Positions 11,359-60,013 of a stretch of 64,000 nucleotides of DNA are shown piece after piece; position 1 is the stretch's first letter; each line of letters begins with the position of its first letter. The notes beneath the pieces were generated by a model. That model saw only the letters and a list, made by a program, of their open reading frames with translations, was not told the origin of the DNA and did not search any database. This DNA comes from a candidate division NC10 bacterium CSP1-5 (lineage in GTDB: Bacteria > Methylomirabilota > Methylomirabilia > Methylomirabilales > CSP1-5): positions 75,059-139,058 of the forward strand of contig LDXR01000006.1 of the NCBI GenBank assembly GCA_001443495.1, read 5' to 3'. A program made the position numbers and the translations under genes.

Positions 11359-12364
11359 TCGCCTCCCCCCGGGCTATCAACTCGAAGGCCTCTGGCAGAG
11401 AGGAAAGCGCCATCTGGTGCGTCAGGAGGATCTTGGTGTTCACCAGCCCCTGCTCGAGGAGGCCGAGGGCCTCGCGGATGTGGCGGGGGGTATGGTGGAA
11501 GACACCGATCAGCATGAGTTCCTCGTAGTGCATCCGGCGCGTATCCACCCGGAAGCTCGTCCCCGGCTCACACCCCCCAAAGAGAACGACCGTTCCCGCC
11601 TTGCGGGTCACCTCGACCGCCTGCTCCCACACCTCGGGTCTCCCCGTCGCCTCGATGGTGACGGCGGCACCACGGCCCTCGGGGCTTAACCGCCGGACCT
11701 CGGCGAGCACCCGTTCCCCCTGCGCCGCATCGAGGATCTCATCCGCGCCGGCCTCAGCGGCCTTGGTCAACCGGAACTGGCCTTTCCCCACCATGATAAC
11801 CTTGACCCCCTGTCTCTTTGCGAGCTGCGTGAGGAGGAGCCCCATCGGCCCGGCCCCGAAGATGCACAGGGTCTCCCCGAGCCTCACGCCGGAGCGCTCG
11901 ATCCCATGAAGGGAACAGGCGAGCGGCTCGACGAGGGCGGCCTCGGCAAAGCTGAGATGCTCCGGAAGCGGGAGGAGGTTCTGCCGAACGATGCGGGCCG
12001 GGACCCGGATGTACTCGGCATAGGCGCCGTTCAAGAATTGTAAGTCCTCACACAGATTGACCCGTCCCATCCGGCAAGGGAAGCACAAATGGCAGGGGGC
12101 GGAGTTGGCCCCGACCACCCGGTCTCCACCCCGCACCGACTCGACCCCCTCGCCCACCGCTTCGACGATCCCGGCCCATTCGTGGCCAAAGAGGGCGGGG
12201 GTCTTTTTGATCATGACCGGGTGGCCCCGGCGATAGGTCTTGAGGTCCGTGCCGCAGGTCAGCGCTGATCCGATCCGCACCAACACCTCTCCGGGCCCTG
12301 GCGCCGGGGTGGCCACCTCCTCAAACCGGATGTCACCGGGACGATAAAACACCACCGCCTTCAC
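11336..12364 (-). CDS. Zinc-dependent medium-chain alcohol dehydrogenase (first of two)
   Basis: A 342-residue MDR-family NAD(P)-dependent dehydrogenase. The catalytic zinc site (CGTD, GHEWAG), the four-Cys structural zinc lobe (PCHLCFPCRMGRVNLC) and the Rossmann glycine motif (GAGPMG) are all present. It resembles sorbitol/threonine dehydrogenases, but the substrate cannot be set. Its ATG overlaps the end of the next upstream gene by 4 nt (12361-12364), so the pair is translationally coupled. It is the distal end of the hopanoid run; a role in reducing a side-chain or head-group aldehyde is possible but is only inference from context. Confidence 0.88.
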   Translation of the reverse strand: MKAVVFYRPGDIRFEEVATPAPGPGEVLVRIGSALTCGTDLKTYRRGHPVMIKKTPALFGHEWAGIVEAVGEGVESVRGGDRVVGANSAPCHLCFPCRMGRVNLCEDLQFLNGAYAEYIRVPARIVRQNLLPLPEHLSFAEAALVEPLACSLHGIERSGVRLGETLCIFGAGPMGLLLTQLAKRQGVKVIMVGKGQFRLTKAAEAGADEILDAAQGERVLAEVRRLSPEGRGAAVTIEATGRPEVWEQAVEVTRKAGTVVLFGGCEPGTSFRVDTRRMHYEELMLIGVFHHTPRHIREALGLLEQGLVNTKILLTHQMALSSLPEAFELIARGEAIKVALTP

Positions 12365-13407
12365 GGCTGCTCCACCTCCACAAAGACCTTGAGCGCTTCC
12401 TTGTCCCGGAACATGTGCATCCCATGGGTGAGATCGGCCAACGGGACCCTGTGGGTGACGAGCGCCTTCACCCGGACCGTTCGCTCCGCCAACAGGGCGA
12501 GGGCTTCCTGAAGCTCGACGGTGGAGGGGGAATAGCTGCTCACGAGGCTGAGTTCCCGGTGAAAGAACCGGTGGATATCCAGTTCTACCATCGGGTTACC
12601 CGGGTCCGAGGCGAACAACATCACGACGCCACCATCTCTCAGGAGATCGATCGCCGCCCCCAGCACCCGCGGCCCGCCCGCTGTCAGTATAGCAGCATCG
12701 GCGCCGCGACCCTGAGTCACCTCTTGGACGGCCTGGGGCACCTCCGCCTGACCCGGCGTGAGGGTCACGTCCGCCCCGAACGCCTTGGCGCGCTCACAGC
12801 GCTCGCCGATGAGATCAAAACCGATCACCCGGGCTCGATAGAGCTTGAGAACCTGAACGAGCATGAGGCCGATCGAGCCCAATCCATACAGGAGGACCGT
12901 GTCGTGGAGGAGTGGGTTCAGCCGCTTGACCGCCCGGAGGCAGCAGGCAAGCGGTTCGGTAAAGGCGGCCTCTTCGTCCTCAAGATGGGAAGGGATCGGG
13001 AAGGTGGCGTATCGGGTGTTCAGAGCCGGAACCCGGATATACTCGGCGAAGCCTCCCGGGTCGATATTCGACGCCTTGAAGGTGCGGCACATGGAGAAGT
13101 TGCCGTGCCGACAGTAGTGGCAGGCGTAGCAGGGGACGTGGTGAGAGACCACCACCCGCTCGCCGACCGTCCGTTCCTCAATCCCCTCCCCCAGGGCCGC
13201 GACAGTACCGACGACCTCGTGCCCGAGGACGGTGGGAGGTGTGACGAGAGCGTGATCGACCTTGCTCGCATCGGTTGCGCACAGGCCGCACCCCTTGACC
13301 TTGACCAGCAGCTCGCCGGGCCCGACCCTCGGGACGGGGACCGCCTCCACACGGATCTGCCGATTCCCCTGGTAGACCGCCGCTCTCATGGTTTGTGGCA
13401 TGCTCAT
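12361..13407 (-). CDS. Zinc-dependent medium-chain alcohol dehydrogenase (second of two)
   Basis: A 348-residue MDR-family dehydrogenase, a diverged paralogue of its downstream neighbour. The zinc ligands are in CGLCATD and GHEVVG, the structural zinc lobe is PCYACHYCRHGNFSMC, and the cofactor loop is GLGSIG, with an Asp in VIGFDLIG at the end of the second strand, which usually favours NAD. ATG 13407 follows a short gap of 75 bp from hpnD that is filled by a phrase repeat. The substrate is unknown; like its partner it could act on a polyol or aldehyde made in the hopanoid locus. Confidence 0.87.
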   Translation of the reverse strand: MSMPQTMRAAVYQGNRQIRVEAVPVPRVGPGELLVKVKGCGLCATDASKVDHALVTPPTVLGHEVVGTVAALGEGIEERTVGERVVVSHHVPCYACHYCRHGNFSMCRTFKASNIDPGGFAEYIRVPALNTRYATFPIPSHLEDEEAAFTEPLACCLRAVKRLNPLLHDTVLLYGLGSIGLMLVQVLKLYRARVIGFDLIGERCERAKAFGADVTLTPGQAEVPQAVQEVTQGRGADAAILTAGGPRVLGAAIDLLRDGGVVMLFASDPGNPMVELDIHRFFHRELSLVSSYSPSTVELQEALALLAERTVRVKALVTHRVPLADLTHGMHMFRDKEALKVFVEVEQP

Positions 13408-15295: not shown

Positions 15296-16297
15296 TTACC
15301 TCTGTACCCTCCGGCAGGCGTATCCGTGGGTGTAGTACCACTCCACCGCGTCTCGCAGCGCTTCTTCGACCGGTGTCTGGGGTAACTCGAGTTCGCGGAT
15401 GGCCTTGGAGGGGTCAAAGAACATCATCGTGTGCGCCATGCGGACCGCGTTGAGAGGAACCCGCGGCTCCTGGCGGCTGAGTCGCGCGTAGAGCTCGAAG
15501 GCGCACGCGGCGAGGACGGCCACCGGATAGGGAATCCGAAAGCGGGGTGCAGGGACGCCGGAGATCTGCTCGAGTATCCCGAAGATTGCGCGCAGGGTGA
15601 GATTCCGGTTCCCCAGGATATACTTTTCGCCGATCCGTCCTCTCTGGGCCGCCAGGATGTGGCCCCGAGCCACATCCTGGACGTGGACCAGATTGAGACC
15701 CGTGTGGAGGTAGCCGAACATCTGCCCGTTGAGATAATCGACAATCATCCGGCCGGTGGGGGTGGGTTTGACATCCCACGGTCCCACAGGGGCAGAGGGA
15801 TTGACGATGACCACCGGAAGCCCCAGGCCGGCGATCCGTTCTGCCTCCCGCTCGGCCAGAAACTTGGACCGCTTGTAGGGGCCGACCATCTGTGCCAGGG
15901 TGACCGGCGTCTCCTCGGTTCCTGGCAGGCCATTTTTGGGGATCCCCAGGGCCCCCACCGTGCTCGTGTAGACGACGCGCTCTATCCCCGTCTCGAGCGC
16001 GACCTCCAGGATGTTGCGGGTCCCCTCCACATTGGCCCGGTACGTTGCGGCCGCGTCCCGTGAGGAGAGGTTGTACCGGGCGGCGACGTGGTACAGGACC
16101 TGACACCCCTTGAGGGCGCGCCGGAGACCCTCGCGCTCCGCGAGGTCTCCCTGGACCTCCTCGATCTCGAGGCCCTCGATGCCGGCCCGTGGACTCGACG
16201 GTCTCACCAGCACGCGGACGGCGACCCCGTCTTGAAGCAGCTCTCGGACGAGGTTTGCCCCAACAAAGCCGGTCGCCCCGGTGACGAAGGCTCTCAC
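15296..16297 (-). CDS. hpnA: Hopanoid-associated sugar epimerase/dehydratase-like protein HpnA
   Basis: A 333-residue extended short-chain dehydrogenase/reductase. The N-terminal NAD(P) motif is GATGFVGANL and the catalytic triad includes the YKRSK tetrad block, as in HpnA proteins of hopanoid loci, whose exact reaction is not established. I chose GTG 16297 because it overlaps the TGA of the upstream gene (GTGA) and has GGGAG nine bases ahead; a longer frame from ATG 16324 is possible. It is linked upstream to the HpnL-like gene and downstream to the prenyl synthase. Confidence 0.88.
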   Translation of the reverse strand: MRAFVTGATGFVGANLVRELLQDGVAVRVLVRPSSPRAGIEGLEIEEVQGDLAEREGLRRALKGCQVLYHVAARYNLSSRDAAATYRANVEGTRNILEVALETGIERVVYTSTVGALGIPKNGLPGTEETPVTLAQMVGPYKRSKFLAEREAERIAGLGLPVVIVNPSAPVGPWDVKPTPTGRMIVDYLNGQMFGYLHTGLNLVHVQDVARGHILAAQRGRIGEKYILGNRNLTLRAIFGILEQISGVPAPRFRIPYPVAVLAACAFELYARLSRQEPRVPLNAVRMAHTMMFFDPSKAIRELELPQTPVEEALRDAVEWYYTHGYACRRVQR

Positions 16298-17274
16298 GTC
16301 TTTTGCTCCCTCTGCCCGGGCCATCCAGTCCGTGTAAGGACCAGGAGGCCGATGGCGACCCACAGGATCTCCCGCGCCCTGCGCAAGAGACTGAAGGCCA
16401 TGGCGGCCTCTGCGCTCATGCCGAGACCGAGGAAGATCAAGACGGTTCCCCCCTCTTGGGCTCCCAGGTTGGCCGGGATGAAGAAGGTCGCCGCCTTGAC
16501 CCCGAGGAGGAGCGCCTGGATCACCATCGCCGTCGGGACGTCCACGCGGCTTCCCATCGCCCACAGGAAACCGTACGCCTCGACGGCGGTGGTCAGCCAG
16601 CCGAGGAGCGAAAAGAGCAGGCACCCGACCAGAGGGCTGCGGCTTCGGTAGAGCGTGGCGATCTTGTCATCCAGGATCTCGAGCCCCTCTCGTTTCGCCA
16701 TCCAGGCCTCACCCCTGGCACCGAGCCGATAGATGAGCCGGTGGAGGAGCGAGAACAGCCCCCGCGTCTGGCTATAGTAGAGGACCAGGACCACGAGGGC
16801 CAGGAAGAGGCCCACCCCGAATCCCCCGAGCAGCGCCGATGCGAACTCCTGTGTTCTCGGGAGGGCACCGGCCAGCCCCAGAAAGATAAAAAGACAGTAC
16901 GCGAACGTCGTCATGGTCTTTGTGACCACGACCGAGGCGAGGCCGTCGCTTAACGGAACGCCGAGGCGGCGGAGCAGCGAGGCCTTGAGCGGCTCCCCGC
17001 CCAGGTAGGCGAGGGGTGTGATGAGGTTGACCGCCTCTCCCGCCGCCCGGATCAGGAAGGTGTGTGCGAGGGGTACCCCGGGAGGCAGGGTCAGCCACCA
17101 GCCGATGGAAAAGAAGACAGCCATGACCACGGAGGGAAGGAGGAGGGAGGGGAAGCTCCATCCGACCTGCCGGACCTGGGCGAGCGTCTCCTCAAGCCCC
17201 ACCTGCCCGAGGATCCACAGGAAGAGGAAGAGACCGAGGCAGAGGGCGATCAGTGTGCCCCAGGGCCTCTTCAC
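16294..17274 (-). CDS. HpnL-like integral membrane protein (lysylphosphatidylglycerol synthase TM family)
   Basis: A 326-residue membrane protein of the UPF0104/LPG-synthase transmembrane family, with about eight hydrophobic helices. Members in hopanoid loci are called HpnL and are proposed to move lipids across the inner membrane. Family landmarks are LAYLGGEPLKASLL and PANLGAQEGGTVLIFLGLG. The gene starts 12 nt after the decarboxylase beta subunit and overlaps hpnA by 4 nt. Its place between a lipid head-group module and hopanoid genes fits a flippase for the modified lipid, which is inference. Confidence 0.8.
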   Translation of the reverse strand: MKRPWGTLIALCLGLFLFLWILGQVGLEETLAQVRQVGWSFPSLLLPSVVMAVFFSIGWWLTLPPGVPLAHTFLIRAAGEAVNLITPLAYLGGEPLKASLLRRLGVPLSDGLASVVVTKTMTTFAYCLFIFLGLAGALPRTQEFASALLGGFGVGLFLALVVLVLYYSQTRGLFSLLHRLIYRLGARGEAWMAKREGLEILDDKIATLYRSRSPLVGCLLFSLLGWLTTAVEAYGFLWAMGSRVDVPTAMVIQALLLGVKAATFFIPANLGAQEGGTVLIFLGLGMSAEAAMAFSLLRRAREILWVAIGLLVLTRTGWPGQREQKT

Positions 17275-17286
17275 GCCCCCCCTCCG

Positions 17287-17856
17287 CTAATCGCTGCCTG
17301 CAGCCACCTGCCGGAGGCGCGCGGCGATGGCCTCGGGGTGAAGCGATACCCGGGGAATCTCTTCCCGCCGGTCCCCGATCTCGAGTTGAACGAGGAGAAA
17401 GGCAGGGCCAGGCCCGCCGAGGAGCAGGGGAAGCACCGCCTCGAGCTCCTCCCGTCGGGCCACGCGATACACCAGGCGGTACCCGGCCGCCTTCGCCATC
17501 TGTTCGAGAGGGACCTTTGCCGAGAAGGTCGGTTGATTCCCGGTGGAGCCGTGGGCGGAGTTGTCGAGGACGATGTGAATGAAATTCGGCGGGGCGTGAA
17601 AGCTGGCGGTGGGGAGGACGCCCAGATTCATGAGGAGATTGCCATCTCCGTCCAAGACCACGACCCGTCGCTCGGGCCGGCTCAGGGCGAGCCCCAGCCC
17701 AATGGAGGGCGCGAGGCCCATGGAGCCGATCATATAAAAATTCTCTGTCCGATCCCGGGCGACCATGGTCTCCCGAGAGATGAACCCGTTGGCGGCGATC
17801 ACGATCTCTCGATCGAGCCGCTCCAGGATCACCTGAATGGCCTCTTCGCGCATCAT
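17287..17856 (-). CDS. TPP-dependent decarboxylase, beta subunit (phosphonopyruvate/sulfopyruvate type)
   Basis: A 189-residue subunit holding the C-terminal, diphosphate-binding half of a thiamine-diphosphate enzyme. The Mg-TPP motif is GDGNLLMNLG (residues 70-79) with LDNSAHGSTGNQPT at 97-110, the pattern shared by phosphonopyruvate decarboxylase and sulfopyruvate decarboxylase beta subunit. Its ATG overlaps the stop of the alpha-subunit gene by 4 nt (ATGA), so the two are made together. Given a PEP mutase gene at 58.9 kb, phosphonopyruvate to phosphonoacetaldehyde is the favoured reaction; sulfopyruvate or another 3-substituted pyruvate is the alternative. Confidence 0.82.
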   Translation of the reverse strand: MMREEAIQVILERLDREIVIAANGFISRETMVARDRTENFYMIGSMGLAPSIGLGLALSRPERRVVVLDGDGNLLMNLGVLPTASFHAPPNFIHIVLDNSAHGSTGNQPTFSAKVPLEQMAKAAGYRLVYRVARREELEAVLPLLLGGPGPAFLLVQLEIGDRREEIPRVSLHPEAIAARLRQVAAGSD

Positions 17857-19292
17857 GTCACAATCCCCTTTCTCAGGAGCAGGGCGACCGGGGTCCGGTC
17901 CTGCTTCATGCGGTCCGCGGCCCAGCGGATGGCCTGCGGAATCGTCTCCTCCTCCAGGATCTGGTAGGGAATCCGCAGGGTCTCGAGGAGCGTCGGGGTG
18001 ATCTGGCCCGTCAAGAGGTGCTCTGGCGCGTCCTTGCCCCCGTATCCGCGCCAGCCGATCAGGAGCAGGCAGGGGATCCGGTAGAGCAGGGCCAGCGAGG
18101 AGAGGGCATCGAGGCTCTGCCCCAGACCCGAGTTCTGCATCAGGACGACCGGCTGCTTGCCGCCGAGGTAGGCCCCTGTGGCCATGCCCACCGCCGCGTC
18201 CTCCCGCGCCGCCTGGACGTAGCCATGCTCGGCCAGGAGGGTGAAGAGTCCTTTCATGAGCGAGCAGGGGACCCCGGTGAAGAAGTCAAAGCCGGCTTCC
18301 ATGAGGAGCCGGACGAACTCGTGCGCCGTGACCCCTGTCGCCCTCGGTTGCGGCCTCGCTGCCGGCCGCCCTCGGTCGGGGACGGTCTGGTCCATCTGCG
18401 GTCGGCGAGATCGCGTGACGACCGGTGCCGCGAACGTCGGTCGCGGAAAATCCTGAAGGATCAGGCGGTCGATCTCTTCCTCGAGTCGATGACAGAACTC
18501 GATCTCCTTGATGGCGCGTTGGTACTGGTCGATGCCGAGGTAGCGGAGAAACCGGCGGATGCCCCAGTCCACCGCCTCGTACGGGACCGTGGGGGCTGCC
18601 ATGTCCCCCATGCGGATGATGAGGGACTTGACGAGCGGCTCGGGCTCGAGCGGGGTGTTCCAGAGCGGATGCTCGCCGATCTGGGCGCGAAACCGGGTGA
18701 TATGCTCTTCCCGGTAGAATTCCCCGCGGAATTTCATGAAGTCGATTGCTGTCCAGAAGTCCCACCGCGCCGAGGCGAAGGCACAATCGGGAAGGAAGAA
18801 CTGGATCGGATTGATCCAGACGTCGAAATAGGGATGGCTCAGGAGGCTCACGGCCGCGGCGAGGCGATCCGTGCCGGGCCGGCCCACCTGTGGGTCCCCC
18901 ACCACGGTCGCTGCCGTCTCAAGATGGTGGGCAAAGACCGGGGCCTCCTCGACGATGCGCCGCAGCGCGTAGATCTTCCGCTCGACCAGATGCCAGCCCT
19001 TCTCATCCGAGACGGGAAGGATGTCGAGATGCGCCTCGAGCTCCTGGATCGCGCTCTCCTTGCGGTCATGCAGGGCGCCGAAATCGCGGCGCGTGAACTC
19101 GCCGCTCGGAAAGACCTCGAGCGCGACGTCCAGGAAGTCGCGGAAGTTGTCCAGGGTATGGGCGTACACCCCGTGGTAATGGGTCGGCTGCCTGTCGATG
19201 ATGGGCAGGCTCGCGTAGATGGCCGCGCCCGGGTCGAGGCCGCAGCTCTTCAGCAGCTTGGTCGCGAGGATCGCGTGCGTCCCCCAGTCCAT
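17853..19292 (-). CDS. Fusion: unknown His-rich domain plus TPP decarboxylase alpha subunit
   Basis: A 479-residue protein. Residues ~310-479 are the N-terminal TPP-binding half of a phosphonopyruvate/sulfopyruvate decarboxylase, with the catalytic-Glu region REDAAVGMATGAYLGG and MQNSGLGQSLDALSSL. The first ~300 residues form a separate domain I cannot identify: it opens WGTHAILA, has the His cluster THYHGVYAHTLDN, HH near residue 123 and LLSHPYFDVW, and looks like an all-helical metal-dependent hydrolase, with only a faint resemblance to zinc phospholipase C. ATG 19292 has AGGGAGG about eight bases upstream and starts 2 nt after the previous gene stops. The two domains are joined by a Pro/Arg-rich linker. 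Stand-alone alpha subunits are about 170 residues, so the fusion is unusual. Confidence 0.78.
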   Translation of the reverse strand: MDWGTHAILATKLLKSCGLDPGAAIYASLPIIDRQPTHYHGVYAHTLDNFRDFLDVALEVFPSGEFTRRDFGALHDRKESAIQELEAHLDILPVSDEKGWHLVERKIYALRRIVEEAPVFAHHLETAATVVGDPQVGRPGTDRLAAAVSLLSHPYFDVWINPIQFFLPDCAFASARWDFWTAIDFMKFRGEFYREEHITRFRAQIGEHPLWNTPLEPEPLVKSLIIRMGDMAAPTVPYEAVDWGIRRFLRYLGIDQYQRAIKEIEFCHRLEEEIDRLILQDFPRPTFAAPVVTRSRRPQMDQTVPDRGRPAARPQPRATGVTAHEFVRLLMEAGFDFFTGVPCSLMKGLFTLLAEHGYVQAAREDAAVGMATGAYLGGKQPVVLMQNSGLGQSLDALSSLALLYRIPCLLLIGWRGYGGKDAPEHLLTGQITPTLLETLRIPYQILEEETIPQAIRWAADRMKQDRTPVALLLRKGIVT

Positions 19293-19294
19293 CG

Positions 19295-20503
19295 CTAGGC
19301 CTCCCTGTCGGCAGAGACCGGCCTCGGGGCCATCTCGGGATGCTCCTGGCGCTCGGCCCGCCTGTCCCGAATGAGGAGGGCGAGGACCGACGGCCAGAAG
19401 AGGTTGATCCCGATCGCCGCGGCCCAGAGAAACCACTCGAGCCGGTCCACCAGCGCTGCGAGAAGGACGATCAGGGCAAAGTCCCGGTGCATGACCTGGG
19501 CGAGAAGCCGATTGACCGGGCGGCGCCGGATCATGTACGCCCCCATGGTCCCGGCCGCCGTAGCTGCGCCCACGACGAGCAGCGCGCCCACGATGAGCAC
19601 GCTGGGCTCTGGCCTTCTCAGATACGCCGCCCGGACGATAGCGGCAAAGATCCCCACGTGCACCAGGTTGTCCAGGACATAATCCATCACGCCGCCCCAT
19701 CGGCTCTCCTGCAGCCTCAGGCGGGCCAGCATCCCGTCTAGCAGGTCGGTGAGATAGGCGAGGACGAAGAGCATCCCCCCGACGACTGTCCAGGCGTAAT
19801 CGCCCTGCCACAAGCACGCGATGGCGCCGAGCCCGATGAAAAATCCTGCCAGGGTGAGCTGGTTGGGGGTGACCCGCGTGTCGACCAGGGCACGCATGAC
19901 TGGGAAGAGGAGGCGTCTCGAGCGGCGGATCAGCCAGCTATCGGTTGGCTTCCCCAGGGCCCGATAGAGGGCGGCCGCTGCCCTCTCGCTGGTCGTGTTG
20001 GCGAGATCGAGGCACACTGCCGCCCCCGAAAGGGGGACCTGGACTGGAGGCTGCAGGCGTCCGGTCGGGACCGCGGGGCTCCCGAGTGCCACCGGAGCAT
20101 CGGAACCCTGGCCCGCCGGGACCACGAACGGTGCCCCGGGATGATAGGCGGCCCTGAGTTCCGTGAGCAGGGGTGGGTTCAGCACGGTGCTCGCGCGGAT
20201 GAAGAAGCACGGGGGGATCCCGTTGCCGCCCACGGCTTTGCTCACCGCTGCCGGTTCCGTGTCGACCCACTCGATCCGACTCTCGGATAGTCGCTCGCCC
20301 ACCAGGGCCTGCAGCCGGGGGGCCGCGTCGCCGGCGCAGATGATCACGCGGCGCACGCCGGCGCGCTGTGTACTGACAAGGATGCGCCTGAGCAGGGAGA
20401 CCCCGCCCACGCGCGCGGCGGCAACAGACCAGTCCCCGTGTGTCGGGGGGAGGACGATGGCCGTTCTTCCGACGTCATCCATTGGGGCGCTAGCGTGAGG
20501 CAT
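19295..20503 (-). CDS. CDP-alcohol phosphotransferase with N-terminal nucleotidyltransferase-like domain
   Basis: A 402-residue protein in two parts. Residues ~210-390 form a membrane CDP-alcohol phosphotransferase, with the complete motif Asp253-x2-Asp256-Gly257-x2-Ala260-Arg261-x8-Gly270-x3-Asp274-x3-Asp278. This enzyme class moves a phospho (or phosphono) alcohol from CMP onto a lipid or polyol hydroxyl. Residues ~12-180 have a nucleotidyltransferase-like layout (TAIVLPP, LLRRILVSTQRAGVRRVIICAGD) but lack the Gly-rich/Arg nucleotide loop, so that half may be inactive or regulatory. The architecture recalls fused inositol-phosphate cytidylyltransferase/DIPP synthases. It overlaps the upstream cytidylyltransferase gene by 14 nt; ATG 20503 was preferred over 20482 because GAGGA lies ahead of it. 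Confidence 0.83.
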   Translation of the reverse strand: MPHASAPMDDVGRTAIVLPPTHGDWSVAAARVGGVSLLRRILVSTQRAGVRRVIICAGDAAPRLQALVGERLSESRIEWVDTEPAAVSKAVGGNGIPPCFFIRASTVLNPPLLTELRAAYHPGAPFVVPAGQGSDAPVALGSPAVPTGRLQPPVQVPLSGAAVCLDLANTTSERAAAALYRALGKPTDSWLIRRSRRLLFPVMRALVDTRVTPNQLTLAGFFIGLGAIACLWQGDYAWTVVGGMLFVLAYLTDLLDGMLARLRLQESRWGGVMDYVLDNLVHVGIFAAIVRAAYLRRPEPSVLIVGALLVVGAATAAGTMGAYMIRRRPVNRLLAQVMHRDFALIVLLAALVDRLEWFLWAAAIGINLFWPSVLALLIRDRRAERQEHPEMAPRPVSADREA

Positions 20504-21236
20504 GGGTTGCAACAATCCTCGGGAGGACTTCCTCCCGGGCCCGATCGAGCTCTTTCGGCCCATCGATGTCGATCCACGAGAGTCCCGTGGTCACCGAACA
20601 GTGAACGGGGACACCCTTGGCGATCAACCGTTCCAGGGCGGCCGTGTAGTACTCGTTGGTCGCCCCTTCCTCCGTCAGCCGCTCGATTTCGGCGAAGAAG
20701 AGCCGCCCGCCGTCGCTGGAAAACCGCGCGATGCCGAGAAAGGTCCCCGTCACCTCGGCGGGAGGGACCGTCTTGCTCACCGCCAGGACCCGGGTGCCTC
20801 GGGCCGCGACTTTCTTGCTCTCGGCGTGGATCTCTTCGCTCACGGCGAGGCAGATTTCTCCTGGTCCTTCGAGGCAGGCCTTCAGGATGTCCGGATGGAA
20901 GAGGATGTCGGCGTAGCAGATGACGAAGGGGGATCCGAGGAGCCGTTCGCGGCTCACCCAGACCGAGTATAAATTATTCGTGTCGGCGTAGCGAGGATTC
21001 TCCACGACGGTGACCGGGAAGGGGCGCCCGCCGCCCGTCCCCCGCGCGAACGCACGGATCTGCTCCCCCAGGTAGCCGGTGACGATCACCGCCTCCGCGA
21101 TCCGCTGCGCCGCCAGGGCGTCCAGCAGGTAGGCGAGGATCGGTCTGCCCCCCACATCCAAGAGACATTTGGGGGTCTCCACCGTGAAAGGCCGGAGGCG
21201 GGTCGCCTGGCCTGCCGCGAGCACGAGCGCCCTCAC
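20490..21236 (-). CDS. LicC/PntC-like CTP:phospho(no)-alcohol cytidylyltransferase
   Basis: A 248-residue cytoplasmic nucleotidyltransferase. The nucleotide loop is LAAGQATRLRPFT (residues 7-19) with Lys23 in TPKCLLDVGG, the metal Asp is in YAD (108-110), and the segment DTNNLYSVW (85-93) is characteristic of the LicC/PntC group that activates phosphocholine or 2-aminoethylphosphonate with CTP. GTG 21236 overlaps the stop of hpnG by 4 nt (GTGA). Next to a CDP-alcohol transferase and a phosphonopyruvate-type decarboxylase, it most likely makes a CMP-activated head group. A glucose-1-phosphate type substrate cannot be excluded. Confidence 0.82.
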   Translation of the reverse strand: MRALVLAAGQATRLRPFTVETPKCLLDVGGRPILAYLLDALAAQRIAEAVIVTGYLGEQIRAFARGTGGGRPFPVTVVENPRYADTNNLYSVWVSRERLLGSPFVICYADILFHPDILKACLEGPGEICLAVSEEIHAESKKVAARGTRVLAVSKTVPPAEVTGTFLGIARFSSDGGRLFFAEIERLTEEGATNEYYTAALERLIAKGVPVHCSVTTGLSWIDIDGPKELDRAREEVLPRIVATHASR

Positions 21237-21970
21237 GGTCGCAGCTCCCGTAAGAGAGCGGCAATGGCCCGAGCGAGGTGTCGGGTGGCGATCCGGAGCC
21301 TCGCCGCCACGTGGAGCATCGGGGGAATCCACGACGGATGCCGGAGGAGAGAGGCGGCGACGGCGATGGGCTTGAGGCGGCCGTCCGACGCCAGGAAGGC
21401 GCTTCCCCGTGCCGCCCAGGGCTCGGCGGCGGTATCCGAGACGACCCTGATCGCGAGGAACGGGATCCCTCGCCACTCCGCTGCTTCGGCCAGATAGGCG
21501 CTCTCCATGTCCACAGCCACGATCGGCCCGCCCGACCGCCTCTCAGCCGTCTCGGCTGGCGTCATGACTTTATCGACCGTGAGGATGGTCCCGACATGGA
21601 AGGGGAGCCCGATGGCCTTGGTGGCGCCCGTCGCGGTTTCGAGCAGGAAGGGGTCAGCGGCGAAGGATTCGGCATGTCGAATCACCTGAGAGGCGACGAC
21701 GAGGTCCCCGAGAACCGCCTCGGACCCCACCCCCCCACAGAAGCCGGCCGACAGGAGCACGCTGGGCGTGCCAAGCGAGGCGACGGCCCGGTCCGCTCCA
21801 CGCGCACCCATCCCCGCCTGCAGCAGGAGGATTCGATTCCCCTCATCGCGGTACCGGAGGAGGCCATCGACATTCCGGTCTCTCCGAAGCCCGAGATGCT
21901 TGACGAGCGGGGCCGCCTCCACCCCGAGGGCCACTACGATCGTAGCCGGGCCATGGGCCAATCGAGACAT
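21233..21970 (-). CDS. hpnG: Hopanoid-associated nucleoside phosphorylase HpnG
   Basis: A 245-residue phosphorylase of the PNP/MTAP fold. In hopanoid makers HpnG removes adenine from adenosylhopane (the HpnH product) to give phosphoribosylhopane. Visible features are VVALGVEAAPLVKHLG, the Gly-rich SAGFCGGVG, and the nucleoside-binding VAVDMESAYLAEAAEWRGIPFLAIRVVSD block with the key Met-Glu pair. ATG 21970 has GAGG six bases upstream. It is linked on one side to the 130-residue protein and hpnH and on the other, by a 4-nt overlap, to the cytidylyltransferase. Confidence 0.9.
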   Translation of the reverse strand: MSRLAHGPATIVVALGVEAAPLVKHLGLRRDRNVDGLLRYRDEGNRILLLQAGMGARGADRAVASLGTPSVLLSAGFCGGVGSEAVLGDLVVASQVIRHAESFAADPFLLETATGATKAIGLPFHVGTILTVDKVMTPAETAERRSGGPIVAVDMESAYLAEAAEWRGIPFLAIRVVSDTAAEPWAARGSAFLASDGRLKPIAVAASLLRHPSWIPPMLHVAARLRIATRHLARAIAALLRELRP

Positions 21971-21983
21971 CCTTGCCTCACCC

Positions 21984-22376
21984 CTATAGATCCCCCCGCG
22001 CCTCGGCCTCGGCGCGGAGCCGCTCCGCCTCGGCCTGGCGTAACTTGTCGCTCTTGGTTGCCCACGCCTCCCAGGATTTCCCAAAGGCGGTATCTTCCCC
22101 CGTGAAGTCCACGGCCACAATGTCGGCGTAGGGGATGGTCTGGGTACCAGGGGCTCCCTGGGGGAAGAACTGGAGATACGCCTGAGATCCGCGCGCCTGG
22201 CGGTTAAAGATGTACCCTTCGATGCGCGTGCCATCCTTCAGTTCGAGGGCGACATCGCCCCGATAATCAAAGGCCGCCTCGATGACCTCCTGAAGTTCCG
22301 TGGGATTCGCGGGACGGAACGAGCGCCCTTCCCACTGGGGTCGTTCCGAGCCGTGTGCCTTCGTCTCCTGAGGCAT
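21984..22376 (-). CDS. Unknown 130-residue protein between hpnH and hpnG
   Basis: I do not recognise a named family. The middle (~residues 40-95) looks like a small beta-barrel of the Sm/LSm type: VALELKDGTRIEGYIFNR, then IPYADIVAVDFTGED, followed by a Trp-rich turn (GKSWEAW) and a charged C-terminal helix rich in Arg, Glu and Ala. No signal peptide or membrane helix is present, so it should be cytoplasmic. It sits 13 nt before hpnG and 16 nt after hpnH in the same run, which argues for a role with these two enzymes, for example as a regulatory or scaffold protein. Confidence 0.75.
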   Translation of the reverse strand: MPQETKAHGSERPQWEGRSFRPANPTELQEVIEAAFDYRGDVALELKDGTRIEGYIFNRQARGSQAYLQFFPQGAPGTQTIPYADIVAVDFTGEDTAFGKSWEAWATKSDKLRQAEAERLRAEAEARGDL

Positions 22377-22392: not shown

Positions 22393-23406
22393 TCACGAAT
22401 TCGGCATCAGCGTCACCCTGACCGTCCGGGCAAAGCCCGACCAGGAGCTGAACGTATCATCGACGGCGGTGGCCTCGTAGCCGCAGTGCACCATGCAGTC
22501 GGCGCACTTGTCGTTGCGGCCGGTCCCGTACCGGTCCCAGTCGGTGGTCTCCATCAATGCCTTGTAGCTGGGGGCGTAGCCATCTTGCAGCAGATAGCAG
22601 GGTCGCTGCCACCCAAAGATGTTGTATGTGGGATTTCCCCAGGGCGTGCACTGGTAATCGCGCTTCCCCATGAGGAATTCGAGGAACAGGGGCGACTGGT
22701 TGAAGCGCCAGTGTTTCTTGCGATCCTTGAGGATGGCCCCAAAGAGCTCTGTGACGCGATGGCGCCGGAGGAAGTGCTCCTGATCGGGGGCCTTCTGGTA
22801 GCTGTACCCCGGGGAGATCATCATCCCTTCGACCCCGAGTTCCATCATCCTGTCAAAGAATGTCCGGACCCGCTCCGGGTTGGCGCCGTCGAAGAGGGTC
22901 GTGTTGGTCGTGACCCGAAAGCCGCGCGCCAGCGCTACCTTGATGGCCCTCAGCGCGATATCGTACACCCCATCCCGGCAGACGGCGATGTCGTGCTCTT
23001 CTCTGAGCCCGTCCATGTGAATGCTGAAGGTCAGATACGTGGATGGCGTGTACTCGTCAAGCTTGCGCTCCAGCAAGAGCGCGTTGGTGCAGAGGTAGAC
23101 GTACTTCTTCTGCGCAACGAGCCCCCGGACAATCTCGGGCATGTCGGGATGAATCAGGGGTTCGCCCCCGGGGATACTCACGATCGGCGCCCCGCATTCA
23201 TCGGCGACGGCCCAGCACTCCTCGGGTGTCAGGCGTTTCTGCAGGACGTGCTCGGGGTATTGAATCTTGCCGCAGCCGGCACAGGCCAGGTTGCACCGAA
23301 AGAGGGGCTCGAGCATCAGCACGAGGGGATACCTGGTATTCCCCTTGAGCTTTTGGCGGAGCACGTACAGGGTAACGGCGAGCGACTGCGAGAGCGGAAC
23401 TGCCAT
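22393..23406 (-). CDS. hpnH: Hopanoid radical SAM protein HpnH (adenosylhopane synthase)
   Basis: A 337-residue radical SAM enzyme that adds the 5'-deoxyadenosyl group to diploptene, starting the C35 side chain of extended hopanoids. The cluster motif is C38-x3-C42-x2-C45 (CNLACAGC), followed by the SAM-binding GGEP. The C-terminal part carries further cysteines (CTPW, CYLL, CADCMVHCGYEA) as in HpnH. The normal length and place, directly before the 130-residue protein and hpnG, support the call. ATG 23406 is the first good start. Confidence 0.94.
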   Translation of the reverse strand: MAVPLSQSLAVTLYVLRQKLKGNTRYPLVLMLEPLFRCNLACAGCGKIQYPEHVLQKRLTPEECWAVADECGAPIVSIPGGEPLIHPDMPEIVRGLVAQKKYVYLCTNALLLERKLDEYTPSTYLTFSIHMDGLREEHDIAVCRDGVYDIALRAIKVALARGFRVTTNTTLFDGANPERVRTFFDRMMELGVEGMMISPGYSYQKAPDQEHFLRRHRVTELFGAILKDRKKHWRFNQSPLFLEFLMGKRDYQCTPWGNPTYNIFGWQRPCYLLQDGYAPSYKALMETTDWDRYGTGRNDKCADCMVHCGYEATAVDDTFSSWSGFARTVRVTLMPNS

Positions 23407-23430: not shown

Positions 23431-24348
23431 CTATTCGAGGTGGGGATCCCTCCACACCGGTTCCACGGGGAGTGATCCTCTGCCGTTTGCAGGGGCGTCT
23501 CGGGCGGAGAGGACGACTGGCACCCGCTCGAGATGCCCCCGAGATGACCGCTGGCCTTCCCGCCACCGCGCGGTGATGGTGACCGCTAGGCACGTGGTCA
23601 GGGGACCGTAGATGAAGAGACCCACAAGGAGCAGGGTCTGCTCCCCGATGAACCAGGTGACGGTGAGGGCAAATGCCAGGACAATATAGTACAATCCCGG
23701 CCCATACAGCGGGCGCAGGGGGAGCCGCGCCGCCCAGGCGGGTGCTCCGGGCCTGATCGACCGCTCGAGGAGCGCAAAGAGGATCAGGATCGCAGAGCCC
23801 ACGACCCCCCACCCGACAAAATTAGACACCGGAACCCCAAAGTACACCCCCCCCTCAGGATAATAGAAGATCTGCCCGAGAAACCACCGATCACCCCGGA
23901 CGGCGATGGGGTCTACGACGACGTCGATGAGGACAAAGAAGACCACGGCCAGCAGGAGGACGGGGGCGCCGAATCGGTCGCGGTGAGGGAGCGACAATGC
24001 CCAGCGGCTCTCCCCATCCCTGAGGGGTCGGAGGAGCGCGAGGGAGGCCACCGTCCAGCTCGCATATGCGAGGAAGACGAAGGAGAGGGAATCCATGAAG
24101 GGTACCCCGGCGATCCAGAGTTCCCTCCCGGCAGTCGTGGGCAGGTAGTGGTACAGGCCAAAGGGGACCCCGAACCGGATCGACAGGGATTCGGCGGTAA
24201 AGGCCACACTCCACGCCACGACCGTGAAGAGGAGGGTCCGTCGCCACCCCATATCTGCCACAGCCGCGAAGAGATAGAGAAGGAGGAAGGCGACGACGTA
24301 CGGTCGCAGCACGACAGTGCCAACGACGAGCTGGACAAAGGAATCCAT
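23431..24348 (-). CDS. CruF-like carotenoid hydratase family membrane protein
   Basis: A 305-residue integral membrane protein of the carotenoid biosynthesis protein/CruF (DUF422) family, whose characterised members hydrate the end double bond of acyclic carotenoids. About eight helices are visible with the family blocks GVPFMDSLSFVFLAYASW, VDPIAVR and YYPEGGVYFGVPVSNFVGW. No phytoene desaturase or other carotenoid gene is in the window, and this is the first gene of the hopanoid run, so its substrate may be a hopanoid or squalene-related polyene. It is followed by hpnH after 24 nt. Confidence 0.85.
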   Translation of the reverse strand: MDSFVQLVVGTVVLRPYVVAFLLLYLFAAVADMGWRRTLLFTVVAWSVAFTAESLSIRFGVPFGLYHYLPTTAGRELWIAGVPFMDSLSFVFLAYASWTVASLALLRPLRDGESRWALSLPHRDRFGAPVLLLAVVFFVLIDVVVDPIAVRGDRWFLGQIFYYPEGGVYFGVPVSNFVGWGVVGSAILILFALLERSIRPGAPAWAARLPLRPLYGPGLYYIVLAFALTVTWFIGEQTLLLVGLFIYGPLTTCLAVTITARWREGQRSSRGHLERVPVVLSARDAPANGRGSLPVEPVWRDPHLE

Positions 24349-24633: not shown

Positions 24634-25401
24634 ATGAGGATTCTCTGGCTCCTTGGCGAGTGGGCCCTGACTTCCCTCCGCGACGGGGGCCGGATGATGA
24701 TCTTTCTCGGCACCGCCCTCTGCTGGATCTTTCTCCCCCCCCTCAAGTGGCGGCGCATGATCGCCCGGATCCACTTCATCGGGGCCAAGTCGCTCTTGGT
24801 GATCCTCCTCACGGGCGCCTTCACCGGAATGGTCCTGGGGCTCCAGGTCTTCTATACCCTGACGAAATTTGGCTCGGAGGCCTTCCTCGGCCCGGCGGTG
24901 GCCTTGACCCTGATCCGCGAGTTAGGACCGGTCCTGTGCGCCCTGATGGTCACGGGGCGCGCTGGCTCGGCCCTAACGGCCGAAATCGGGATCATGCGCA
25001 TCACCGAACAGATCGATGCGCTGCACGTTATGGCGCTCAACCCCATGCGATACCTGGTCGTCCCGACGATCCTGGCCGGCCTGATCGCGTTCCCCCTGCT
25101 GACCGCCATCTTCGATTTGGTCGGGATCTACGGGGGGTATCTCGTGGGGGTGAAGCTCCTGGGGATCGGGGAGGGGACCTATTTCGGAGAGATGGAGACC
25201 TACGTGGGTCTCGGGGATATCACCCAGGGGATCCTCAAGTCGCTGAGCTTCGGACTGTTGGTGACGTGGGTCTGCTGTTACAAGGGATTCTATACCGGCT
25301 ACGGGGCCGAGGGGGTGAGCCGGGCCACGACCGAGGCGGTGGTCCTCTCCTCGGTGTTGATCCTGGTCTGGGATTACTTTGTCGGTTCGGTGCTTCTGTA
25401 A
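24634..25401 (+). CDS. mlaE: MlaE-type ABC lipid transport permease
   Basis: A 255-residue inner-membrane permease of the MlaE/YrbE family, which moves lipids between the inner membrane and the periplasmic MCE protein. Five to six hydrophobic helices are visible, with the conserved central block RELGPVLCALMVTGRAGSA and EIGIMRITEQIDAL. ATG 24634 has GAGGAAGGG upstream. Its stop shares a base with the next start (TAATG), so mlaE and mlaF are coupled. It is the first gene of a run ending in squalene-hopene cyclase, suggesting that hopanoids are among the lipids moved. Confidence 0.93.
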   Translation: MRILWLLGEWALTSLRDGGRMMIFLGTALCWIFLPPLKWRRMIARIHFIGAKSLLVILLTGAFTGMVLGLQVFYTLTKFGSEAFLGPAVALTLIRELGPVLCALMVTGRAGSALTAEIGIMRITEQIDALHVMALNPMRYLVVPTILAGLIAFPLLTAIFDLVGIYGGYLVGVKLLGIGEGTYFGEMETYVGLGDITQGILKSLSFGLLVTWVCCYKGFYTGYGAEGVSRATTEAVVLSSVLILVWDYFVGSVLL

Positions 25402-26159
25402 TGTCGGGGCCCATGGTCGAGATGCGCAATGTGCATAAGTCCTTCGGAGGACAGCAGGTGCTCCGGGGACTCGATCTGCAGGTGACCCAGGGAGAGATTC
25501 TGGTCATCATCGGCCGAAGTGGCGGCGGCAAGAGCGTCCTCCTGAAGCACTTGATGGGTCTGCTGAAGCCGGACCAGGGCCAGATCGTGATCAACGGCCA
25601 GGAGATCTCGCGACTCCGCGGACGGGAGCTCGACCAACTCCGGGAGCGGTTTGGCGTGGTCTTTCAGGGGGGGGCCCTCTTTGACTCCCTGACGGTCTTT
25701 GAAAACGTGGCTTTTCCGCTCCGGGAGAAGACCCGCCTTCCCGAGGAGGCCATTCGGGAGAAAGCCCTAACCCTCTTGAAACAGGTGGGTCTGGCGGACA
25801 TGGGCCACAAGTATCCCGCCGAGGTGAGCGGGGGGATGAGGAAGCGGGTCGCGCTGGCCCGGGCGCTCACCATGGAGCCGGAGGTCGTCCTCTTCGACGA
25901 ACCGACGACCGGTCTCGATCCGATCATGGTGAATGCCATTCATCGGCTGATCCTCGACCTGCATCGGCGCGTCGGCTTTACGGCCATCATGGTCAGCCAC
26001 GAGATCCCCGAGATCTTCGGGATTGCCGACCGGGTCGCGATGCTGCATCGGGGGGCGGTGGTCGAGGCGGGGACTCCGGAGGCGATCCAGGCATCCGCCA
26101 ATCCCGTGGTCCGCCAGTTCATCACCGGCGATCCCGAAGGGCCGATCCAGCCCGACTGA
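25401..26159 (+). CDS. mlaF: MlaF-type ABC ATPase
   Basis: A 252-residue cytoplasmic ATPase partner of MlaE. Walker A is GRSGGGKS, the signature is VSGGMRKRVALARAL, Walker B is VVLFDEPTTGLDP and the switch His is in MVSHEI. The GGALFDSLTVFENV block is typical of the MlaF/Ttg2A group. ATG 25401 overlaps the mlaE stop by one base. The open frame continues upstream through mlaE in another phase, but that part is not coding. Confidence 0.95.
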   Translation: MSGPMVEMRNVHKSFGGQQVLRGLDLQVTQGEILVIIGRSGGGKSVLLKHLMGLLKPDQGQIVINGQEISRLRGRELDQLRERFGVVFQGGALFDSLTVFENVAFPLREKTRLPEEAIREKALTLLKQVGLADMGHKYPAEVSGGMRKRVALARALTMEPEVVLFDEPTTGLDPIMVNAIHRLILDLHRRVGFTAIMVSHEIPEIFGIADRVAMLHRGAVVEAGTPEAIQASANPVVRQFITGDPEGPIQPD

Positions 26160-26170
26160 GGGGGGCGCGC

Positions 26171-26611
26171 ATGAAACGGATGGAGCTTGAGGTGGTCGTG
26201 GGTCTCTTCCTGCTGGTGGGCATCCTCGCCCTGGCGTGGCTCTCGATCCGGCTGGGCAGGATGCAGGTGCTCGGACTGGCAGGATACGTCGTGTACGCGG
26301 ACTTCCCCAGCGTGGGCGGATTGAAGCAGGGGGCCAGCGTCGAGATCGCCGGGGTGAAGGTTGGTCAGGTCGACACGATCTCGCTGGTCGAGTACCGGGC
26401 GCGGGTCAAGCTCCGGATCGACGACAGCGTCAAGCTGCAGGAGGACACGATCGCCTCCATCAAGACGAAGGGACTCATCGGCGAAAAGTATATGCGCTTG
26501 AGCCCCGGCGGGTCCGATGAGACGATCCCCCCCTCGGGGAGGATCCGCGAGACCGAGCCGCCCATTGACATCGAGGAGCTGATTGGCAGCTTTATCTTTG
26601 GGAAATTTTAG
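26171..26611 (+). CDS. mlaD: MlaD-type MCE-domain lipid-binding protein
   Basis: A 146-residue protein with one N-terminal membrane helix (residues ~6-26) and a single MCE domain (VYADFPSVGGLKQGASVEIAG, then IKTKGLIGEKYMRLSPG). MCE proteins form a periplasmic hexamer that passes lipid between MlaFE and soluble carriers. ATG 26171 follows GGGGGGCG eleven bases after mlaF ends. The C-terminal tail (IDIEELIGSFIFGKF) is short. Confidence 0.93.
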   Translation: MKRMELEVVVGLFLLVGILALAWLSIRLGRMQVLGLAGYVVYADFPSVGGLKQGASVEIAGVKVGQVDTISLVEYRARVKLRIDDSVKLQEDTIASIKTKGLIGEKYMRLSPGGSDETIPPSGRIRETEPPIDIEELIGSFIFGKF

Positions 26612-26648
26612 TGCGCGGGCAACCGTCAATCCGGAGAGGAGGGGTGCG

Positions 26649-28055
26649 ATGGCCGCATCGATTGCATCGGGGGTCTGCCTTCTACTGATCCTGTTCGCGC
26701 CGGCCTGGGCAGCCGCCCAGGGACAGCCACCCGGCGGGCAAAAGAAGCTCGTCTTGAAGGTGGAGGAGGCGGTCAAGCGGGCCCTAAAAGTGAACGATGA
26801 GCTCAAGGAAGCCTTCGCGGGGGTCGATGTCAGCCGCGGCAAACAGGCCCAGGCCGAGGGGGCTAAGTGGGCGCAGCTCGAGGCGAACATTTTCGCGGGT
26901 CCTTCCCCCGTATCGGAGCTGACCAAGGACGGGAGCACGGACGGGACGATCCAGTCCAGCTCGAGAGTGGATGATCCCGTGATCAACGGCGTCTTCGGCC
27001 GGGCCCAGATCCTTCTGGTTCAACCGCTGTACACCTTCGGCAAGATCACCGCCTTCCGCGAGGCGGCCGGCCTGGGGGTCCAGGTGAGCGAGGCGGGCGT
27101 CGATAAGAAGGCCTCGGAGGTGGTCCTGCAGGTCCAGCAGTTCTATTACGGGGCCCTGCTCGCCGGTGATGTCTCCGGGTTCCTCGACGGCCTTCGGGAG
27201 GAGCTCGAGCGGGCTCTCAGAAAGGCCGAACGGCAGGTCGAGGCAGGGTCTCCGGCGGCGACCGTGTCCGATGTGTATCAGCTCCGTGCGTTCCTCGCGC
27301 AGGCCCAAACGAAGATGGCCGAGGCCGAGACCGGACGCAAGCTGGCCCGGGATGCTATTCGCGCGGCCCTGAAGCTCGAACAGGGAGTCGATTTCGAATT
27401 GGCGGACAAGGCCCTGGAACCTGCGAAAGTCGATATCAAAGCCTTCGAGGCCTATGTACAGACGGCCCGGGAGCTCCGTCCGGAGTTTGTGCAGCTCCGG
27501 CACGGCATCAAGGCCCGCGAGGCGTTAGTGCAGGCCGCCGTCGCGGATCAGTACCCCATCGTGTACGCGGCGGCCGTCGCCGATATCGCCCAAAGCACCA
27601 ACCGGGATGAAAGCGAGCTCCCGATCATTACCGATCCGCTGCAGCACAGCCAGGGGGGCGTCATCCTCGGCCTGCGATGGCACTTCGACTTCGGGATCAC
27701 CAGGGGGAGGATCGACGAGGCCCGCGCCGAACAGACGAAGCTGATCCACAAGCAGGATTTTGCGGACGTCGGGATCCCCCTGCAGGTGCGGAAGGCGTAC
27801 CTCGACTTGGAGAATGCGCAACAGGCCATCGTGACCACCGAACAGGCGTACCGGAATGCCCGGCGGTGGCTGGTGAGCGCCGCGGCCAACTTCGATCTGG
27901 GGATCGGCGATGTCCGTGAGCTCACCGATGCGTTCGTCTCCTACTCCCTGTTCCGAGTGGATAACTTTCGCGCCATCTATAATCAGCGGATCGCGCTCGC
28001 CAACCTCACCTTCGCGACCGGGGAAACGGTCCGCGAGTTCCCGGCGCGCCCATAG
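26649..28055 (+). CDS. TolC-like outer membrane efflux protein
   Basis: A 468-residue outer-membrane channel protein of the OEP/TolC family: a cleavable signal peptide (residues ~1-24, ending AAAQG), then long Ala/Glu/Gln-rich helices in two repeats and beta segments (QILLVQPLYTFGKI and GVILGLRWHFDFG). ATG 26649 has GAGAGGAGGGG upstream. Lying in the same run as MlaEFD and HpnN, it offers an outer-membrane exit for lipid; most Mla systems use an MlaA-OmpC complex instead, so the pairing is unusual. Confidence 0.88.
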   Translation: MAASIASGVCLLLILFAPAWAAAQGQPPGGQKKLVLKVEEAVKRALKVNDELKEAFAGVDVSRGKQAQAEGAKWAQLEANIFAGPSPVSELTKDGSTDGTIQSSSRVDDPVINGVFGRAQILLVQPLYTFGKITAFREAAGLGVQVSEAGVDKKASEVVLQVQQFYYGALLAGDVSGFLDGLREELERALRKAERQVEAGSPAATVSDVYQLRAFLAQAQTKMAEAETGRKLARDAIRAALKLEQGVDFELADKALEPAKVDIKAFEAYVQTARELRPEFVQLRHGIKAREALVQAAVADQYPIVYAAAVADIAQSTNRDESELPIITDPLQHSQGGVILGLRWHFDFGITRGRIDEARAEQTKLIHKQDFADVGIPLQVRKAYLDLENAQQAIVTTEQAYRNARRWLVSAAANFDLGIGDVRELTDAFVSYSLFRVDNFRAIYNQRIALANLTFATGETVREFPARP

Positions 28056-28105
28056 GTGAGTGCCGGGACTGCGTGGAATCGTCGAGGTCGTCGGGAAAGG
28101 CACAC

Positions 28106-28756: not shown

Positions 28757-28786
28757 TTGGAGACCCAAGGAGGCGCAGTAGCGGTG

Positions 28787-32900: not shown

Positions 32901-32942
32901 CCCGCCTCGTCGCCTCGAACGGGAACAGCGGGAGGAGAGAAC

Positions 32943-59885: not shown

Positions 59886-60013
59886 GCGTCAATAAGCCTC
59901 GTCTGTAATTCTGGCCCTAGAAATGCATACTAAGGCTATGAGGGATGCTATGCATTGCCGCGTAGCGTAGTAAGCTTGTAAGCCACCCGTGCTGGGTGCG
60001 GGGAGGACGCGCG

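Follow-up and report, generated by a model that had tools for sequence, protein, structure and literature searches.

Why do four genes that resemble those of phosphonate synthesis lie within an operon for hopanoids, the sterol-like membrane lipids of bacteria that rank with the most abundant lipids of the fossil record? The question is raised by a 64,000-nucleotide stretch of contig LDXR01000006.1 (positions 75,059 to 139,058, GenBank assembly GCA_001443495.1; hereafter, the window) from the candidate division NC10 bacterium CSP1-5, whose genome (G000; 2.77 Mb, 99.7% complete) belongs to the phylum Methylomirabilota. On the minus strand, a LicC/PntC-like cytidylyltransferase (NTase, 20490-21236), a CDP-alcohol phosphotransferase (19295-20503), and the alpha (17853-19292) and beta (17287-17856) subunits of a putative thiamine pyrophosphate (TPP)-dependent decarboxylase are encoded between hpnG and hpnL, and a gene for a putative phosphoenolpyruvate (PEP) mutase lies about 38 kb away on the plus strand (58940-59815). 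This block is truly and recurrently a part of hopanoid loci. Judged from sequence, its genes look able to make a phosphorus-containing head group and to attach it to a lipid; the carbon-phosphorus (C-P) bond and a hopanoid acceptor are hypothetical.

A recurrent block in hopanoid loci

The minus-strand operon begins with a CruF-like gene, hpnH, a gene for a protein of 130 amino acids (aa), and hpnG, continues with the NTase, phosphotransferase, fused alpha, and beta genes, and proceeds to hpnL, hpnA, two prenyl/squalene-synthesis genes, and two alcohol dehydrogenase genes. The close packing reported in an initial annotation of this DNA was confirmed: the hpnG stop and the GTG start of the NTase share 4 nucleotides (nt; 21233-21236), the NTase and phosphotransferase genes overlap by 14 nt (20490-20503), a gap of 2 nt precedes alpha, alpha and beta overlap by 4 nt (17853-17856), and 12 nt separate beta from hpnL (edge at 17274).

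The surroundings of the alpha/beta pair were compared in 39 Methylomirabilota genomes (beta subunit about 45% identical or more), and a hopanoid gene was found within 10 kb of the pair in 29 of them. In comparison with a congener, G008, the ratios of nonsynonymous to synonymous substitution rates (dN/dS) are 0.17-0.30 for the block genes, which resembles the values for hpnH (0.11) and hpnG (0.33). A chance gene order is rejected by the recurrent hopanoid linkage together with this purifying selection. In a close relative (G012, hpnH 95% identical, dS about 0.1), excision of the block has left 55 NTase codons between hpnG and hpnL. Thus, the module is maintained where present yet dispensable. 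A short direct-repeat stretch replaces the deleted block in G012 beside the NTase stub (L236:5700-6420).

The usual order in Rokubacteria is shc-mlaE-mlaF-mlaD-mlaC-[PEP-mutase-like/NTase fusion]-alpha-beta-[transaminase]-[NTase-phosphotransferase-hpnL]-ino1-hpnN, with hpnH, hpnG, hpnA, hpnD, and the genes for the CruF-like and 130-aa proteins running divergently; the Rokubacteria-type locus of G082 has the full set. In family f3, hpnH and hpnG are followed by the ~300-aa domain described below (twice), alpha, beta, phosphotransferase, hpnL, NTase, transaminase, and oxygenase genes, upstream of hpnA. Nitrospirota, Brocadiales, and other groups outside the phylum also have the module, as a rule with no hopanoid genes alongside; such genes do accompany it on one Omnitrophica-labelled, one Chlamydiae-labelled, and two Scalindua contigs. 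A superoperon shc-mlaEFD-mlaC-alpha-beta-(hpnL)-ino1-hpnN was seen in L254, L257, L258, L260, and other Rokubacteria, with ino1 (inositol-phosphate synthase-like) as a fixed neighbour of the TPP pair.

A link between hopanoid and phosphonate genes has one precedent. Hopene cyclase-PEP mutase clusters of Roseomonas were noted in 2021 and suggested to stand for an undiscovered terpene-phosphonate, with a decarboxylase and an aminotransferase described beside the mutase (PMC8776678). Compared by description, these clusters, from a different phylum, likewise bring the two sets of genes together, but the window mutase lies outside the cluster and the transaminase is lacking. No other paper joining hopanoids to PEP mutase or aminoethylphosphonate was found in the literature searched, where the conserved, PEP-mutase-independent position of the pair in Methylomirabilota hopanoid/Mla loci also appears to be undescribed.

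The enzymes and a tentative route

The adjacent alpha (PYR, TPP_enzyme_N) and beta (PP, TPP_enzyme_C) subunits have their best NCBIfam matches among phosphonopyruvate decarboxylases and the alpha/beta subunits of sulfopyruvate decarboxylase. The scores against TIGR03297 (a model of a single fused chain), TIGR03845, and TIGR03846 (176 and 136, 123, and 176 bits) are all below the cut-offs (312.5, 148, and 221.5, respectively). The best structural matches are the two-subunit PYR/PP enzymes RhiEF/ComDE (PDB 9iz3 and 9iz4; 119 and 108 bits), with RhiF (9iz3) as the closest solved structure for beta, and RhiEF is a proven phosphonopyruvate decarboxylase (PMC12141560). All RhiEF-shared stretches, GVPCS, REDxA, MQNSGLG, WRG..G.DAPEH, NFYMIGSMG, DGDG, and STGxQ, are kept in the window pair, as in the RhiEF/ComDE family; unlike these enzymes, it falls below the equivalog cut-offs for both phosphonopyruvate and sulfopyruvate decarboxylases, and its alpha subunit is fused N-terminally to an extra domain. 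No other decarboxylase of this type was found in the window's genome.

This extra domain had been overlooked in the initial annotation. In the alpha open reading frame (ORF; 479 aa), the decarboxylase subunit takes up no more than the final ~160 residues (about 17856-18340); residues 1-300 (18393-19292) make up a separate conserved domain without a Pfam or PDB match, and the two parts are separate ORFs in G008. A zinc-dependent phospholipase C was suspected from the absence of any such match onward, and the AlphaFold model of the domain (mean pLDDT 59) is too poor for a structure search. Conserved His/Asp motifs (THxxL, PxHYH, and SHxYFD) are seen in the domain, which also stands beside the decarboxylase in Brocadiaceae/Planctomycetota loci, in genomes without a match to PF13714. 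Its presence coincides with the absence of PEP mutase, the window being the sole exception.

The NTase (NTP_transf_3 in Pfam, 52 bits) keeps the catalytic R15, K25, D106, and K153 (numbering of Treponema denticola PntC), and E104 and E196 are replaced by Y and T, so that neither acidic residue is present. In the T. denticola enzyme, both glutamates were placed near the amine of 2-aminoethylphosphonate (AEP) (PMC6697681). Tyr and Thr are seen in the window NTase and in L005/L134, as well as in the G008 counterpart, and transaminase-linked homologues carry D and E/D at these positions. In the tree, the window NTase groups with the stand-alone NTase of cluster L065 and with PEP-mutase-fused NTases (support 0.93), not with transaminase-linked PntCs.

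The phosphotransferase matches CDP-OH_P_transf (49 bits) with an intact motif DGMLARLRLQESRWGGVMDYVLD, of the form DGxxARx8GxxxDxxxD, and scores best against phosphatidylinositol-phosphate and archaetidylinositol-phosphate synthases. Its N-terminal domain, not described earlier, is a degenerate nucleotidyltransferase-like one. A gene resembling 2-oxoglutarate/Fe(II) oxygenases accompanies the NTase-phosphotransferase part in f3 (L132:5535-6320) and Rokubacteria, where hydroxylation of the head group would be possible.

Apart from the putative PEP mutase, no gene of the window's genome matches PF13714 strongly. As the initial annotation had stated, this enzyme carries the full signature EDKxxxxxNS (EDKKFPKDNS), and all 13 catalytic residues of the Mytilus edulis mutase are kept (W44, S46, D58, D85, D87, E114, K116, K120, N122, S123, R159, H190, and K192). 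Its nearest relatives outside the hydrolase clade (see below), 58% identical, are the mutases of clusters L053/L065, which comprise a mutase-NTase fusion, alpha, beta, an Fe-alcohol dehydrogenase, and an NTase, with no transaminase; by gene content, this is a hydroxyethylphosphonate-type layout with the Fe-alcohol dehydrogenase in place of the transaminase. In the window, the mutase forms a two-gene island with a short-chain dehydrogenase/reductase (SDR; 59996-60775, plus strand), which is present in G000 and G011 and absent at the intact syntenic site of G010. With a canonical mutase and a reductase-like gene, a sole decarboxylase of this type, and an NTase that groups with phosphonate clusters, phosphonate synthesis in the window's genome is plausible.

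What would the head group be? No ortholog of a PhnW/AEPT-type transaminase was found in G000, in agreement with the initial annotation: the best match is 29% identical vs 45-47% for the relatives' orthologs. Together with the loss of the amine-binding acids in the NTase, this makes AEP the less likely product and a hydroxyethyl-type head group the more likely one, so the earlier view that both were equally probable did not hold.

Tentatively, and with somewhat more doubt than confidence, the block may be read as a lipid head-group module of a phosphonyl-tailoring type activated by cytidine monophosphate (CMP), set in a locus for hopanoid synthesis and transport. We infer every step's substrate, the reductase, the acceptor lipid, and the flipping. 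The mutase would convert PEP to phosphonopyruvate; PEP mutase requires an exergonic next step, and the TPP enzyme would decarboxylate phosphonopyruvate irreversibly to phosphonoacetaldehyde. A reductase, either the mutase's SDR neighbour or the alcohol dehydrogenases that close the hpn operon, would give 2-hydroxyethylphosphonate, which the NTase would activate to CMP-hydroxyethylphosphonate. The phosphotransferase would then attach the phosphonate to a membrane lipid through one of its hydroxyls, the lipid being bacteriohopanetetrol or a diacylglycerol, and the product would be flipped by HpnL and carried onward by Mla/HpnN.

This route shares with the Pnt clusters, e.g., T. denticola Tde1415 PntC-AEPT (PMC6697681, PDB 6pd1/6pd2), the PntC-family cytidylyltransferase and the order of chemistry (PEP mutase, phosphonopyruvate decarboxylase, activation by cytidine triphosphate, and transfer to the cell envelope). 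Unlike Pnt, the window block lies in a hopanoid operon, lacks a transaminase, has Tyr/Thr in place of the AEP-amine acids, and would use a CDP-alcohol phosphotransferase for the transfer, and the PEP mutase is neither linked nor fused. IPCT/DIPPS, a bifunctional inositol-phosphate cytidylyltransferase and CDP-inositol phosphotransferase, likewise pairs a cytidylyltransferase with a CDP-alcohol phosphotransferase, and both window proteins match NF041135, but at 72 and 49 bits vs a cut-off of 580; moreover, the window adds the decarboxylase pair, and no inositol-phosphate synthase match was found in the window.

Phosphonate, other head groups, and the acceptor

Several observations weigh against this route. 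None of the six pairs adjoining a canonical PEP mutase is hopanoid-linked (within the phylum, Fisher p = 6e-5). Among the 29 hopanoid-linked pairs, eight stand beside an EDNxFPKxCS variant and 21 have no adjoining mutase; a genome-wide scan gave no PEP mutase match in 20 of these 21 genomes, the window's being the exception, although two copies, one split (G048) and one at the edge of a contig (G074), are known to have escaped the scan. The 20 include G008 (68% complete), G015 (95%), and G017 (96%), which have a block of this kind. About 12 genomes keep the decarboxylase without a nearby NTase, phosphotransferase, or transaminase, and G010 has the beginning of a phosphotransferase gene behind hpnG, where the contig ends, with no match to the pair or the mutase. 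In the window itself, the mutase is 38 kb from the block and nearest to the phosphonopyruvate hydrolase clade, and an Fe-ADH-type phosphonoacetaldehyde reductase was not found in the genome by a search that had no positive control. Absence of pepM from relatives that keep the block, which the initial annotation had named as contrary evidence, is thus largely what was observed. Of its proposal, the fit of the enzymes to a phosphonyl-tailoring order stood, as did the hopanoid linkage found in its suggested neighbourhood survey; a general companionship with the mutase was not supported.

Within genus g1, to which the window belongs, both mutase and pair are present in G000, and neither was found in G009, G010, or G013. 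G008 has the block. G011 has the mutase, and the lack of the block there was discarded as evidence against the link since no hopanoid region is assembled and hpnH has no match; likewise, G012 lacks the pair, and the lack of the mutase was discarded since the contigs break exactly at the island site. The two distributions are possibly linked, being compatible but too few to prove that mutase and pair go together, which keeps a phosphonate link possible for this species.

In other phyla, homologous blocks adjoin PEP mutase, an aminoethylphosphonate-type transaminase, and PntC-like NTases; the module-associated transaminase scores just under the cut-off for 2-aminoethylphosphonate aminotransferase (356 vs 361). 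The 26 genomes with such modules comprise 11 with a canonical PEP-mutase-NTase fusion, 10 with the variant form, and five with neither. The variant fusions (L025, L060, L265, and others, e.g., L117:1156-3165 and L171) have EDNxFPKxCS, not EDKxFPKxNS, keep the other PEP mutase residues compared, and take the place of the canonical mutase next to this decarboxylase; a filter by the usual motif would drop them, and their fused NTases often lack the catalytic Arg15 and Lys153. The idea that every pair-adjoining fusion proves phosphonate synthesis was dropped because the hopanoid-linked ones carry the variant motif. Pairs near a canonical mutase, a variant, or none are intermixed in one clade, implying either that all act on phosphonopyruvate, with the mutase-less genomes unexplained, or that the enzyme additionally accepts a substrate made independently of the mutase.

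The question of the acceptor arises with any head group, and hopanoid and glycerolipid cannot be told apart from sequence. Transfer to a glycerolipid or an inositol-type lipid, with hopanoid genes adjacent through shared transport by Mla, HpnL, and HpnN, is about evenly balanced, leaning slightly to the negative, and is compatible with the first steps of any other explanation. It is favoured by the Mla and HpnN neighbours, by the fixed position of ino1 in Rokubacteria, by the likeness of the phosphotransferase to inositol-lipid synthases, and by the Nitrospira- and Scalindua-type modules, usually without hopanoid genes within 10 kb. A hopanoid acceptor is favoured by the position of the block between hpnG and hpnA in f1 and f3, where it may be cotranscribed with the side-chain enzymes. 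The phosphono-hopanoid of the initial annotation is only one of several options, and in its full form, with CMP-derived hydroxyethylphosphonate on a side-chain hydroxyl of bacteriohopane, flipped by HpnL, and a C-P class of hopanoids in several phyla with such modules, it must be considered decidedly doubtful.

An ordinary O-phosphate head group, with no C-P bond, seems rather improbable. Here the decarboxylase would take an analogue independent of PEP mutase, in the simplest case 3-phosphohydroxypyruvate from serine synthesis, to give phosphoglycolaldehyde and then, by reduction or transamination, a two-carbon phospho-alcohol or phosphoethanolamine, which would be cytidylated and transferred to lipid in a Kennedy-type manner. 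Such a route accounts for the 20 hopanoid-linked genomes in which no PEP mutase was matched, including G015 and G017, in which decarboxylase, transaminase, NTase, and phosphotransferase share one hopanoid locus without a PF13714 match, and for the Brocadiaceae-type G102-G104, which combine the same ~300-aa domain and a transaminase, again without a PF13714 match. However, no phosphohydroxypyruvate decarboxylase was found in the literature searched, the residues of the pair match RhiEF, canonical-mutase-adjoining and mutase-less pairs share a clade, and the window's genome does encode a PEP mutase and, apart from this pair, no matching decarboxylase.

It is unlikely that the PEP mutase homologue has nothing to do with the block, being a phosphonopyruvate hydrolase or a mutase of another route, and that its presence 38 kb away is fortuitous. 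The protein scores 341.5 bits with the hydrolase model TIGR02321 vs 310.5 with the mutase model TIGR02320 (cut-offs 374.4 and 319.55, both missed), is about 53% identical to phosphonopyruvate hydrolase (PDB 2dua), is sister to the hydrolase clade in the tree (89%), and stands alone with no NTase fusion, unlike the mutases beside other pairs. On the other hand, Asn122, as in mutases, is found in the window and G011 enzymes vs Thr in all six hydrolase-clade sequences compared, and four of five annotated hydrolase-clade relatives adjoin an aminotransferase, mostly with a transporter, in contrast to the SDR beside the window gene. A hydrolase identity was judged less likely but was not rejected outright.

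Least probable of all is that the TPP enzyme acts in hopanoid synthesis itself, on a 2-oxo acid or aldehyde of the ribosylhopane side chain, with the NTase and phosphotransferase as optional extras: genera g9, g12, g13, and g17 do have the pair alone between mlaC and hpnL/ino1/hpnN, and the transaminase ortholog is likewise missing from 13 of the 16 genomes tested that have no PEP mutase, but the lone copies keep the residues of small-phosphonate enzymes and nest among PEP-mutase-linked ones, and one would expect a changed pocket if the substrate were bulky and hydrophobic.

The head-group module in Methylomirabilota hopanoid loci suggests a polar hopanoid, or a lipid transported along with hopanoids, not described so far, and it offers concrete enzymes for assay. 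A phosphonate head group would join C-P chemistry to hopanoids; with any other head group, a decarboxylase that sequence cannot tell from phosphonopyruvate decarboxylases would have another role, and the practice of annotating phosphonate synthesis solely by decarboxylase and nucleotidyltransferase genes would have to be revised.

Neighbouring genes

HpnH, the adenosyl-hopene transferase (22393-23406), scores above the equivalog cut-off of TIGR03470 (550 vs 225 bits), and HpnG, a hopanoid-associated nucleosidase/phosphorylase (21233-21970), is below that of its model (118 vs 187 bits). Upstream of them lies the CruF/Caroten_synth-like membrane protein gene (23431-24348), and hpnA, for an epimerase-type protein, is at 15296-16300; all four are on the minus strand. 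A divergent lipid-transport operon, mlaE-mlaF-mlaD-tolC-mlaC-hpnN, occupies 24634-31552 on the plus strand, and a squalene-hopene cyclase match is found on the same divergent side at 32916.

The roles of HpnA and HpnL are not established (PMC12583986). The HpnL-like flippase-type membrane protein (16294-17274, minus strand; TIGR03476, 170 bits vs a cut-off of 195.65) goes with the block in many lineages, and in G009 and G013 (L237 and L239), hpnG is directly followed by hpnA, hpnL being gone together with the block. This joint loss suggests that HpnL may serve the module instead of hopanoids generally, although G012 keeps hpnL without the block.

The 130-aa protein (21984-22376, minus strand), which has no family match, is conserved at this place, with hpnH on one side and hpnG on the other, both in Rokubacteria and in the genus of the window. 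Finally, the two overlapping zinc alcohol dehydrogenases (11336-13407, minus strand), the candidate aldehyde reductases of the proposed route, stand last in the hpn operon in two families, f1 and f3, and one is also found near hpnD in L257; they are candidates for the elusive reductase that converts ribosylhopane to bacteriohopanetetrol.

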